64,000 nt of DNA from positions 2,311,526-2,375,525 of the forward strand of contig JAKCFJ010000001.1 of the NCBI GenBank assembly GCA_025041175.1. Reading direction: 5' to 3'. Below are positions 300-7,867 of the stretch, in pieces. Every line of letters begins with the position of its first letter. Positions within the stretch are counted from its first letter, which is position 1. The notes below the pieces were generated by a model. It did not search any database, was not told the origin of the DNA, and worked only from the letters and a program-made list of their open reading frames with translations. Both the position numbers and the translations under genes were made by a program. Origin of the DNA: Halobacteriales archaeon YIM A00010 (GTDB lineage: Archaea > Halobacteriota > Halobacteria > Halobacteriales > Haloarculaceae).

Positions 300-1574
300 T
301 CACCACGCGCTTTCGAGAACCCCCTCGATCTCCGTCTCTGTCGGATCGAATCCGTCAGGTGTGTTCCCCAGCAGGCTGTCGGCAGCCACTGCCCCGGCGA
401 CCGCCGGGAGATCATCGTTCGAAAGATCCGGGATCGAACGGAGCCGCGATGGAAGACCGAGCGCATCGCGGATCTCGGTTACCGCGTCGATGACCGCCGT
501 TGCAGTCGCTGCGCTCGATTCGACGCCGAGCGCCTCGGCCAGTTCCTCGCGCCGGCCGTCGACCCGATCGAACAGGAACGCGAGCGCGTGGGGCGCGATG
601 ATGCCGTGGGCCTCGCCCTGCTGTACGTCGTAGCCGCCGGAAATGCCGTGGCCGAACGCGTGGATGAGCGAGAGTGTCGTCACCGGGCTGCGCCCGGCTG
701 TCGTCGGGCCACGCCCGACTGCCCGAGGAGCTTCGCTCTTCCCTGCCTGAGGCGCGTTGCGCCTCTCTGTCCTGCTGCCCCGCGAAACGCCGTACTGAAC
801 TAGCATCGTGCCTACGATCACATCGTGTAACGTCCGATCGTCCCGCGCTCCGGATCCGAGTCGGGGAAGCCCCTCCGCGAGCGATTCCAGCCCACGCGTT
901 GCCGTCGCGTCCGTGATGGGGGTTCTGTTGTGGGCGTACAGCGACTCGATCCCCTTATCGAAGCCGTTCATCGCGGAGGCACACAGGACCTCGTGTGGCG
1001 TCGTCTCGATCAGCGACGGGTCGTACACGAGCGCTTCGGGCATGAGCCGTTGGTCGAACACGCCGCCCCGGACCGGTGGCCGATCGTCCGGATAGGCAGT
1101 GATCCCGGCGGCGACAGAGAGATCCGCACCCGCCAACGTGGTCGGCACCGCGAACACGGGCACCAGCTCCGTTTCCGGAACGGGAAGCGTCCCCGTCTCC
1201 ACGAACGCGGATCGGATGGTCTCCCGTGGGCGGTCGTCGGCCGCGAGCACGCTCATGACCGTCGCTACGTCGAGGCTGCTCCCTCCACCGAGGCTCACCA
1301 GCGCGTCGACCTCGCTCGCACGCTCCACGCCATCGAGTGCCGTCTCCAACCGCTTTTGGGGCGTCGTCTCCGCAAACACGCCGGTGAGCCGGTCGCCCAC
1401 CCCTTCACGGACCGGCTCGACGACCGCCGGTGTTTGGCCGACCGTCGTCCCGGTGACGAGGAGCGCGCGCTCGACACCACGCTGTGCGAGTTCCGTTCCC
1501 AACGCTCCAGCGCTGTCGCGGCCGTACAGGATCGTCCCCGGCTCGTACTCGAACCCGAACGAATCGACTGTCAT
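300..1574 (-). CDS. Iron-containing alcohol dehydrogenase with an in-frame insertion
   Basis: The protein has 424 residues from the ATG at 1574; a longer frame to 1667 looks spurious because it crosses the short gap to the upstream gene. The N-terminal half has the dehydroquinate-synthase-like NAD fold with GGGSS near residues 96-100. Metal-site residues follow: D206 in NGFDKGIESLYAH, then H305, H309 and H323 in HAFGHGISGGYDVQQGEAH. It probably oxidises or reduces an alcohol or aldehyde, substrate unknown. Residues about 266-298 are Arg/Pro/Gly-rich and break the conserved stretch YGVSRG...TTLSLIHAFGHG; their DNA is a cluster of short hairpins (681-776). The gene lies downstream of the symporter on the same strand, 40 bp apart, so cotranscription is possible. 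The frame stays open, but activity with the insert is uncertain. Confidence 0.85.
   Translation of the reverse strand: MTVDSFGFEYEPGTILYGRDSAGALGTELAQRGVERALLVTGTTVGQTPAVVEPVREGVGDRLTGVFAETTPQKRLETALDGVERASEVDALVSLGGGSSLDVATVMSVLAADDRPRETIRSAFVETGTLPVPETELVPVFAVPTTLAGADLSVAAGITAYPDDRPPVRGGVFDQRLMPEALVYDPSLIETTPHEVLCASAMNGFDKGIESLYAHNRTPITDATATRGLESLAEGLPRLGSGARDDRTLHDVIVGTMLVQYGVSRGSRTERRNAPQAGKSEAPRAVGRGPTTAGRSPVTTLSLIHAFGHGISGGYDVQQGEAHGIIAPHALAFLFDRVDGRREELAEALGVESSAATATAVIDAVTEIRDALGLPSRLRSIPDLSNDDLPAVAGAVAADSLLGNTPDGFDPTETEIEGVLESAW
681..776. repeat. Hairpin-cluster insertion inside the alcohol dehydrogenase gene
   Basis: About 96 bp made of consecutive short palindromes, each a 6-7 bp stem with a 3-nt loop: CCGGGC-TGC-GCCCGG, GTCGGGC-CAC-GCCCGAC, a weaker GAGGAGC-TTC-GCTCTTC and GAGGCGC-GTT-GCGCCTC. 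The segment splits a conserved part of the dehydrogenase and is an exact number of codons. It has the same style as the intergenic hairpin clusters at 14.7-15.06 kb. The boundaries are estimates from the protein alignment pattern. Confidence 0.65.
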
Positions 1575-1614
1575 ACACCTCGTTGGCGGGGGACAGACAA
1601 CGCTCTTTTGCCGG

Positions 1615-2928
1615 TCAGTCGTCGGCCGCGGGAGATTCCGACGCGTCTCCACCGGTCCAGACGCCACTGCCGAGATCGATCGCGCCGTTCCACTTGGCGG
1701 CGAGCGTCGACACCGCGAGATCGCCAGTGACGTTGTTCATCGTCGCAATGCGGCCGAGAACCGGATCGACGGCGGCAACGAACCCAACGACTGTCAACGG
1801 GAGACCCGCCTGCTCGAGCACGATCGTCAGCATGATCAACCCCGCACCGGGAACGCCAGCGGTACCGATGCTGATCAGCACCGTGACGAGGAGTATCGCC
1901 ACTTGATCGCCGAGACCGAGCGGCTGACCGACGACGTTGGCAGCAAAGACGACGGTCACCGCCTGCCTGATCGCCGCCCCGTCCATGTTGGCCGTCGAGC
2001 CGAGCGGGAGCGAGAACCCGTACACGCTCTCGTCGATCCGTAACCGTTCCTCGGCGTCGCTCATCGTCACTGGCAGCGTTGCGCTCGACGATCGAACGCT
2101 GAACGCCGTCACCATCGCGTTCTTTGCCCCCTGCAGAAACGAGATCGGAGATCCTCCTAACAGTCCCCCAACGATGACGCCGAGATACGTAACGGTGATG
2201 TGAATGACGACGCCGATGAAAACGACCACCACGAGCGATCCGAGCGCGAGAATGGCACCGACGTCTTTCCCCGCGAGCTCGGAGGCCACGAGCGCAAAGA
2301 CGCCGATCACCCCGAACTCCATGACCCCCCACACGAGGACGAACATCGCTTCCATCCCGGTCTCTGCAAGTTCGAAAAACGTCTCGGCACCGTCACGGAT
2401 CACCGCCTCGTCGGCCCGGTCCCGGGCGATTGCGAGCGCGATCCCGAACACGATCACGAAGAAAATGATCGAGAGGAGATCACCGTTCGCAAACGCATCC
2501 ACTGGATTGGTGGGCACGATTCCGAGAAGCACCTCGTTGATGCTGGGCGGCTGGGCGGACTGTGCCTCACCGCCAGTGAAGGCGACTCCCTGTCCCGGTT
2601 TGAGCAGGTTCGCAACCGCGAGACCAATGGCCGCTGCCACAGTCGTGGTCGCCGCGTACAACCCGAGAACGATCCCGCCGACGCGTCCCATCTGTCTCGG
2701 AGAAAGACGGCGAACGCCCGCGAGCAAACTGAACACGACGACCGGAATCACGATCATCTGCAACAGATTCAAAAAGAGATCACCCAGTGGCGCGAGCCTC
2801 GTGGCTGGAGCACCGACGGAGAAAGCGACAACCGTGCCGAGAACGAACGAGATGGCGAGCCGATAGACGATCGGCACCGAGCGGTACTGGTGCCACACGC
2901 GACTCACCGGATGCTCTGTATCCGACAT
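1615..2928 (-). CDS. Dicarboxylate/amino acid:cation symporter (DAACS family)
   Basis: The protein has 437 residues from the ATG at 2928 (MSDTEHPVSRVW); the frame extends to 3030, but that part is a less likely start. Hydrophobic segments run through the whole length. The family signatures are present: the serine-rich hairpin VRSSSATLPVTM, then GSTANMDGAAIRQAVTVVFA with the conserved NMDG, and GVPGAGLIMLTIVL. Members import glutamate, aspartate or C4-dicarboxylates with sodium or protons. The substrate cannot be read from sequence. The length is typical for the family. Confidence 0.9.
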   Translation of the reverse strand: MSDTEHPVSRVWHQYRSVPIVYRLAISFVLGTVVAFSVGAPATRLAPLGDLFLNLLQMIVIPVVVFSLLAGVRRLSPRQMGRVGGIVLGLYAATTTVAAAIGLAVANLLKPGQGVAFTGGEAQSAQPPSINEVLLGIVPTNPVDAFANGDLLSIIFFVIVFGIALAIARDRADEAVIRDGAETFFELAETGMEAMFVLVWGVMEFGVIGVFALVASELAGKDVGAILALGSLVVVVFIGVVIHITVTYLGVIVGGLLGGSPISFLQGAKNAMVTAFSVRSSSATLPVTMSDAEERLRIDESVYGFSLPLGSTANMDGAAIRQAVTVVFAANVVGQPLGLGDQVAILLVTVLISIGTAGVPGAGLIMLTIVLEQAGLPLTVVGFVAAVDPVLGRIATMNNVTGDLAVSTLAAKWNGAIDLGSGVWTGGDASESPAADD

Positions 2929-3120
2929 CGGAGACAGTTGTCGCTTGAGGATGCTATGGCTGTCGGAGTCAGCTTCTCGTTTACACCGAACTGTTCGACC
3001 GCTATACCGTCCAGTTCGACACACCCACACGATAGTGATCGGTTATATAATAAAAATCGTCAGTCGACCCTACCAGAAGGCGATTAGTCAGAAAAGGATA
3101 CTACATAGTAGAGGGTACTT

Positions 3121-3195: not shown

Positions 3196-4323
3196 ATGCG
3201 ACTTACAGGAAAAGAGTCCTTCAGCAATATCGCCCTATTTGTGTCCGATTCTTTTCGCCACGACACGGGAGAATGCGAGTTTGACCGGAATCGGGTGTTA
3301 AAAACAGTCTCCGCAGGTGTATCCAGCCCGCCCAGTTTTGCGTCGATACTCACCGGCCAGCACCCCTCGTCTCACGGGGTGTTCAGATTCAGCCAGAGTC
3401 TTGAAAAAACAACACCAGATTTGTTCGACCTCCGGCCTAATCCGTCGTTCTACAAGGAGGGTATCGAACTCGGGAAGGTGCTCGGGACGAGTGATAGAAT
3501 CCCCCATAAGCCAATAGACGAGGTGGAACCTCCGTTCGTGTATTTTGAGCGTGACCTGTACCCCCACGCCCCATACAATCACGAATGGACATACAATGAG
3601 CCGGTGAGCGACTATTGCAGGCGGAAACAGGGCACGGCGCGAGACGAGTACAGTGCTGCTGGTACGAGTAGTGTTAGTAAGTTCAGGTCGCGCGTCGAAA
3701 CACTTCGCGACCGGGGACTGCTCACAGATACGCTTGTGTTATTTATTGCCGATCACGGTGAAACCTTTGGAGAGCACGGGTTCTATGGGCATGGCTCTGC
3801 TTCGTTGCCTGAGTTAGTGTATACGCCGACTGTTATCTACAACGACGATGTAATGCTCGAAGAGAAAGCAGCTATCTCCCATATCGATCTACTCCCCACG
3901 CTTGCCCACGCAGTCGGACACGATCTCGCGATGGACGAGCGGTATCCTGGGACAAACCTCTTTGAGGGCGCACGCAACGACAGACTTCATTTTAACCAAC
4001 GCTCAAAAAACGAATGGGGGGTTTGGGATGGATCTGGTGGGTACGTGTTCGCTGATACCAACCTGCTCTACCAAGCAGGCCGATTTGTGTACCACGCTGT
4101 GAGGAGTCCGTATTCCCCGTTGCAGCGCCAACACCCACTCCGATTGGCAAAGACAGTAATCAATGAAACGAAAAGTGGTCCCATAACATTCGGGCAGCCT
4201 GATTTCACTCCCGCAGAGGCGCGCTCATTTGCCAAACCGATACTCAGAAATCAGCCCACTGTATCATCAGAACGCGCTGAAATAAATGAGGAGCATTTGT
4301 CTGATCTCGGGTATGTGGAATAA
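3196..4323 (+). CDS. Sulfatase/alkaline-phosphatase-superfamily protein
   Basis: 375 residues. The N-terminus (SNIALFVSDSFRHD) corresponds to the first metal-binding strand of the fold. SSPPSFASILTGQHPSSHGV matches the catalytic segment; where classical sulfatases have C/S-x-P-S-R, this protein reads S-P-P-S-F, so it may be a phosphodiesterase or glycan-related transferase instead of a sulfate ester hydrolase. FIADHGETFGEHGFYGHG supplies the second metal site. The protein is shorter than the usual 450-500 residues. The gene stands alone, and its base composition is lower in GC than its neighbours, which suggests accessory origin. Substrate unknown. Confidence 0.8.
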   Translation: MRLTGKESFSNIALFVSDSFRHDTGECEFDRNRVLKTVSAGVSSPPSFASILTGQHPSSHGVFRFSQSLEKTTPDLFDLRPNPSFYKEGIELGKVLGTSDRIPHKPIDEVEPPFVYFERDLYPHAPYNHEWTYNEPVSDYCRRKQGTARDEYSAAGTSSVSKFRSRVETLRDRGLLTDTLVLFIADHGETFGEHGFYGHGSASLPELVYTPTVIYNDDVMLEEKAAISHIDLLPTLAHAVGHDLAMDERYPGTNLFEGARNDRLHFNQRSKNEWGVWDGSGGYVFADTNLLYQAGRFVYHAVRSPYSPLQRQHPLRLAKTVINETKSGPITFGQPDFTPAEARSFAKPILRNQPTVSSERAEINEEHLSDLGYVE

Positions 4324-4399
4324 TCTATGAGAGACGTTCTCAGTGCATTTTTCGTTGACATTCTCTGCAAATAGCAAGTGCACATCTACTTCGTGTGAG

Positions 4400-4474
4400 A
4401 GCCAAGGGCCGGATTTGAACCGGCGTAGAGTCGCTCTGCAGGCGACCGCGTCAACCGAACTCTGCCACCTTGGC
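4400..4474 (-). tRNA. tRNA-Cys (GCA)
   Basis: The acceptor stem GCCAAGG/CCTTGGC closes, and the T arm has GGTTCAAATCC. The anticodon loop CTGCAGA, within the stem GTCGC/GCGAC, gives anticodon GCA. No CCA is encoded. It is the distal gene of the rRNA operon, as is usual in haloarchaea. Confidence 0.95.
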
Positions 4475-4555: not shown

Positions 4556-4784
4556 GGAAAGGCGGCGAACCACCAGTTACAGGTGTCGACAGTTTGTTCG
4601 CCATGTCCACCGGGACGAACCCTGCGTGTACTGTGGCTGGCAAACCTCGACCTGCACTTGGCCACCCTTGCGGGTCAGTTTTCCCAGAGACTCTCGTACT
4701 CCAGTACTCGCTGGAACGCAGGCGGGCTTATCTTCCGTGTTCGGGATGGGTACGGGAGTTGCCCCGCCGCTGTGGCCGCCTCAA
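4556..4784 (-). rRNA. rrf: 5S rRNA with a ~107-nt internal insertion
   Basis: On the minus strand the RNA starts TTGAGGCGGCC at 4784 and follows the haloarchaeal 5S sequence through CCCATCCCGAACACGG and on to CTCTGGGAAAA at about 4679. The expected 3' strand of helix I, GGTTCGCCGCC, then appears only at 4571-4561 and pairs with the 5' GGCGGC. The roughly 107 nt between (about 4678-4572) are extra. The total of about 229-231 nt matches the known large 5S rRNA of Halococcus morrhuae, which has a 108-nt insert retained in the mature RNA. The 3' end is placed by helix I pairing and may be off by a few bases. Confidence 0.9.
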
Positions 4785-4870: not shown

Positions 4871-4889
4871 GGGCCAGTACGAATATGTG

Positions 4890-7823
<2,934 letters not shown>

Positions 7824-7867
7824 ATGATACCATAAGGTATCATTTTGAATATAATGCTCTGGACCAC

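Follow-up and report, generated by a model that had tools for sequence, protein, structure and literature searches.

A Halococcus-type expansion of 105 nucleotides in the 5S rRNA of Halocatena, with a conserved distal hairpin

When analyzing a stretch of 64,000 nucleotides of archaeal DNA (here called the window), we found an rRNA operon on the minus strand in the standard haloarchaeal order of 16S, tRNA-Ala, 23S, 5S, and tRNA-Cys genes (Table 1). The 5S gene is about 228 nt long between its predicted mature ends. It is the sole 5S gene of the genome, which gave one RF00001 match in 5.97 Mb (7 contigs, completeness of 99.7%); a normal 5S copy as a fallback is thus apparently absent from the cell. 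The 3' strand of the RNA is read as GGTTCGCCGCC at 4571-4561 on the minus strand, at the far side of an inserted segment. The Rfam 5S model closes falsely on the first hairpin of this segment, at 4783-4665 with several non-pairs, and returns a false 119-nt 5S, which means that automatic annotation would misplace the 3' end. In other carriers, the 5S may likewise be mis-annotated and the insert called intergenic. Downstream of the operon lie long open reading frames at 300-1667 (minus), 1615-3030 (minus), and 3196-4323 (plus), which by eye resemble an iron-type alcohol dehydrogenase, a dicarboxylate symporter, and a sulfatase-like protein.

Table 1. Features of the rRNA operon and of the expanded 5S rRNA gene in the window
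Feature	Positions	Strand	Evidence or remarks
16S rRNA	9688-8217	minus	upstream of 5S, first gene in operon
23S rRNA	4882..7827	minus	upstream of 5S, operon shared
Expanded 5S rRNA gene	4557..4784	minus	Rfam RF00001 match to body, 70.7 bits; alignment with 28 homologues
5S core, 5' part to insertion point (helix I 5' strand; helices II, III, and IV; loop E)	4677..4784	minus	RF00001 match, alignment, covariation
Expansion segment, 105 nt	4572..4676	minus	covariance model match, 117 bits; ends from published boundary
Short arm of insert, hairpin ACCC-GCAA-GGGU	4664..4675	minus	2/4 pairs changed on both sides; 100% of cells paired
Long arm of insert, unbranched	4573..4661	minus	helices 8-11; 17/27 pairs changed on both sides
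Distal conserved element CAGUA-CAC-GCA-GGGUUCGUCCC-G-GUG-GAC with AGUA/GA(A) internal loop	4605..4633	minus	identity 0.88
5S core, 3' strand GGUUCGCCGCC (helix IV base GG and helix I)	4561..4571	minus	
tRNA-Cys(GCA)	4399..4474	minus	downstream of 5S

The 5S rRNA of Halococcus morrhuae is 231 nt long and carries a 108-nt insertion (Luehrsen et al. 1981; Tirumalai et al. 2020, PMC7530397), and a single haloarchaeal type of expanded 5S has been described from Halococcus, Halalkalicoccus, Halomarina, and Halodesulfurarchaeum (Stepanov and Fox 2021, PMC7812874). An earlier note on this DNA had reported that the 3' strand of helix I is displaced by about 107 nt and had matched the insertion to that of H. 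morrhuae in size and place. The displacement is real; it comes to 105 nt, close to the figure of the note, if one uses the published boundary, which is core 104/105 and falls between core positions 104.1 and 105, beside loop E. The match holds as well, by way of the named Halalkalicoccus paucihalophilus, in which the insert occupies the same alignment columns and measures exactly 108 nt at the same boundary; the insert aligns also with those of named Halomarina species. A length of 108 nt is also seen in g25, g34, and g39, and the aligned set spans 104-109 nt. A covariance model of the insert, built on 29 members with the window's own sequence among them, has its only match in the window at this locus (Table 1). 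Together with homologous inserts at the same site in the 28 other aligned sequences, this shows that the insert is not a product of chance. No similarity to any Rfam family was found when the families were searched with the insert. The insert of the window is the known Halococcus-type expansion.

The genus Halococcus, which the note had read from the insert, proved to be wrong. The insert type is common to Halococcus and the host, but genome kinship places the host in genus g1, which also contains Halocatena marina DFN5 and Actinarchaeum halophilum YIM 93972; in current taxonomy, the second of these names points to Halocatena. Identity of the 16S rRNA is 97-98% with these two and does not exceed about 93% with the other genera compared. 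Since at least 11 genera have this insert type and the 16S rRNA places the host elsewhere, the insert does not assign Halococcus, and the chance that the organism belongs to that genus is negligible. All seven genomes of Halocatena that were searched, the window's genome counted, carry the insert. A text search of open papers found no report of an insert in this genus.

Compensatory changes strongly support a fold for the insert. Across 29 distinct sequences, 97.7% of cells are paired in the proposed structure, and 27 pairs are changed on both sides, which amounts to 173 such cells; column shuffles gave 47.7 and slid partners 31 or fewer. The window's own sequence folds only modestly better than its shuffles (z of -1.27), so the case for the fold rests on covariation. 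On either side of the insertion stand the core pairs CCAG/CU^GG, which keep the base of helix IV; as CCAG still pairs with CU^GG across the insert, the result is a four-way junction. The insert lies in the 3' strand at the base of helix IV, and the junction joins the core helix, helix IV, the short hairpin, and the long arm. The insert of H. morrhuae is present in the mature RNA; cryo-electron microscopy reveals a four-way junction there, with the insert as its flexible arm (PMC7530397, PMC7812874).

The length of the segment and its position in a structural RNA gene raise the question of whether it is an archaeal intron or intervening sequence that is removed or cut in processing. Nothing found supports this. 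The homologous 5S of H. morrhuae was sequenced as RNA with its insert and seen in ribosomes (PMC7812874, PMC7530397), and the supported fold keeps the core paired on both sides of the insert, its consensus being a four-way junction rather than the bulge-helix-bulge expected where exon and intron meet. We therefore regard an intron as very improbable. By analogy with H. morrhuae, the insert is presumably retained in the mature 5S here; as an expansion segment of the cell's only 5S, it would most likely stay in the mature large subunit.

Conservation is concentrated at the end of the long arm. With one representative per lineage, mean identity is 0.88 in the distal 29 nt, 0.89 in the 5S core, and 0.61 in the remaining insert. 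AGUA (AGTA in DNA) is present in the distal element of 28 of the 29 sequences. The side opposite reads GAA in 22 of the 29 and GAC, GAU, or GGA in the rest; it is GAC in the window and GAC or GAU in part of Halocatena. The 3-bp helix flanking the AGUA loop compensates (CAC/GUG, CGU/GCG, and GAC/GUC). From its sequence, the AGUA/GA(A) loop resembles a bulged-G (loop E/sarcin-ricin) module. In the insert of genus g19 (G024:C11 75789-75894), the AGUA motif is lost and AGCC stands in its place, possibly through decay before loss or through transfer.

A harmless, functionless expansion at a solvent-exposed site, folded so as to spare the 5S from misfolding, would fit the H. morrhuae cryo-EM map, in which the site is exposed and the arm flexible (PMC7530397), and also the many lineages that have lost or lack the insert. 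However, such tolerance predicts no focus of conservation at the tip, and the distal 29 nt match the 5S core in conservation, with free, compensated drift in the stems that support them. This counts against tolerance, which we consider a serious but doubtful explanation. The earlier remark that the function of the expansion is not known is still fair, with conservation now pointing to the distal hairpin. The tip is probably the functional part of the insert, and the hairpin may have been kept because it is bound by something on or near the central protuberance. This last step is the less firm one; binding of a putative ligand is a hypothesis to which we give, at best, somewhat under an even chance.

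We investigated the distribution of the insert by a covariance-model census of 391 sampled Halobacteria genomes from 86 genera, of which 34 genomes in 10 genera carry it; no carrier was found among approximately 270 sampled genomes of the phylum outside the class Halobacteria. The carriers belong to family f1 (g1, Halocatena; g11, Halomarina; and g19), f5 (g25, probably Halococcus; g39; and g94), f14 (g34, probably Halalkalicoccus), f12 (g32, probably Halodesulfurarchaeum), and f9 (g29 and g41); genus g22 of family f2 was found by searches besides the census. The f2 and f9 genomes that gave no match, with completeness of 58-71%, lack any detectable 5S and are therefore uninformative on absence of the insert. 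Family f11, the sister of the insert-bearing f9, has a normal 5S (G044:C16 121337-121458), a candidate for early loss. An insert match in G092 (83% identity over 41 nt), missed by the covariance model, was taken as chance, and 11 of 20 sequence-pattern matches were normal 5S genes in which the pattern closes further downstream. Two genomes listed as separate species, G002 and G006, have their 5S at identical coordinates (3340260-3340484 on contig C1 of each); G002 measures 4.0 Mb and G006 5.3 Mb with 9% contamination, and the two are possibly one assembly plus extra material.

In f2, the homologous insert (L245, G035:C1 11080-11307) lies on a 21.8-kb contig whose GC content, the rRNA genes apart, is 40-45%. 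Another f2 genome carries a variant of its own, and the two observations together make contamination unlikely. A second 5S in G035 was set aside as contamination; it looks bacterial by eye, and no match to the window's 16S or 23S lies nearby. The f2 genomes measure 0.9-1.1 Mb at 70-78% completeness, with about 43% GC at the locus of elongation factor 2 (EF-2), and the net acidity of EF-2 per 100 residues is 4-5, versus 9-12 in haloarchaea. The Hikarchaeia (Marine Group IV), a sister group of the Haloarchaea, have genomes of approximately 1.2 Mb with approximately 41% GC, and f2 is probably Hikarchaeia-like. With other classes of the phylum as the outgroup, the EF-2 tree has f9/f11 as its first split (support of 100) and f2 as its second (100). 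The near-basal f2 thus stands above f9/f11, an order that differs from the published one if all assignments are right. A tree of 16S and 23S also has f9/f11 as the first split (100; 94 for the rest) and leaves the position of f2 unresolved.

Two histories were weighed for this patchy distribution. Transfer has been proposed for the 5S of Halomarina and Halodesulfurarchaeum by Stepanov and Fox (PMC7812874), and horizontal spread of the insert between haloarchaeal lineages by transfer of the 5S gene would replace an ancestral origin. Under equal costs, 6-7 gains are enough: with a stem gain added, parsimony needs 7 steps on the rRNA tree with the insert absent at the root versus 8 with it present, and 6 versus 6 on the EF-2 tree. 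The balance, a near tie here, tips to ancestry as gains cost more than losses, and parsimony by itself leaves the matter unsettled. Two cases fit some transfer. The f12 insert is unusually close to those of f1, at a distance of 0.22 from the window's versus 0.36-0.37 for f5 g25 and f14, which is nearer than host distance suggests, and the insert-bearing G024 (g19) nests among genera with a normal 5S. Against transfer as the general account, insert distances track 23S distances (rho of 0.73, reached in 0 of 2,000 permutations), the f9 insert is uniformly far from all others (0.35-0.45), and the carriers take in both of the deepest lineages, of which one has a low GC content and an EF-2 of weak acidity. 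We consider spread by transfer in place of ancestry unlikely, if with some weight, and lean toward an ancestral insert with repeated losses. The insert would then go back to the ancestor that the deep f9 and f2 lineages share with the Haloarchaea.

Taken together, the explanation that we hold likely as a whole is a retained, solvent-facing arm of the 5S rRNA, probably ancestral with losses, whose distal hairpin may be bound. The long unbranched arm would point into solvent and end in the conserved hairpin over an AGUA/GAA-type internal loop. In a more far-reaching version, which we think rather improbable, the expansion predates halophily, was kept in Hikarchaeia-like marine archaea and scattered Haloarchaea, and has a sarcin-ricin-like tip that docks a putative ribosome-bound partner. 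For forty years, the Halococcus insert has been a rare oddity, for which transfer between extreme halophiles and possible niche adaptation have been invoked. A new genus, two deep lineages, and probable marine non-halophiles among its carriers suggest that it is ancient and not tied to salt, and this broader distribution argues against an account by transfer only. Conservation of the tip at the level of the 5S core reduces the question of function to one 29-nt element, which makes it concretely testable.

The window's 5S shares with that of Halococcus morrhuae the insertion site, the shape of a short hairpin plus a long arm, and the status of sole 5S type. It differs in having 105 nt in place of 108 and in its genus, and the comparison was made through Halalkalicoccus and genera of family f5. 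With the expanded 5S rRNAs of Halalkalicoccus, Halomarina, and Halodesulfurarchaeum it forms one structural type, with the site and the most conserved distal stem-loop in common (PMC7812874). The feature is of a known kind, and what is new is its presence in Halocatena, a genus off the published list; genus g19 is likewise absent from the carriers listed by Stepanov and Fox (PMC7812874), as are the two deep families, f9 and f2. Both f9 and f2 alter the helix I ends demanded by the pattern of those authors (GGCGGCC...TCGCCGCC). The expanded 5S rRNAs of Thermoanaerobacterium and other bacteria contain a large extra module too, but by their description these have other insertion sites and structures, which sets them apart from the haloarchaeal type (PMC7812874).
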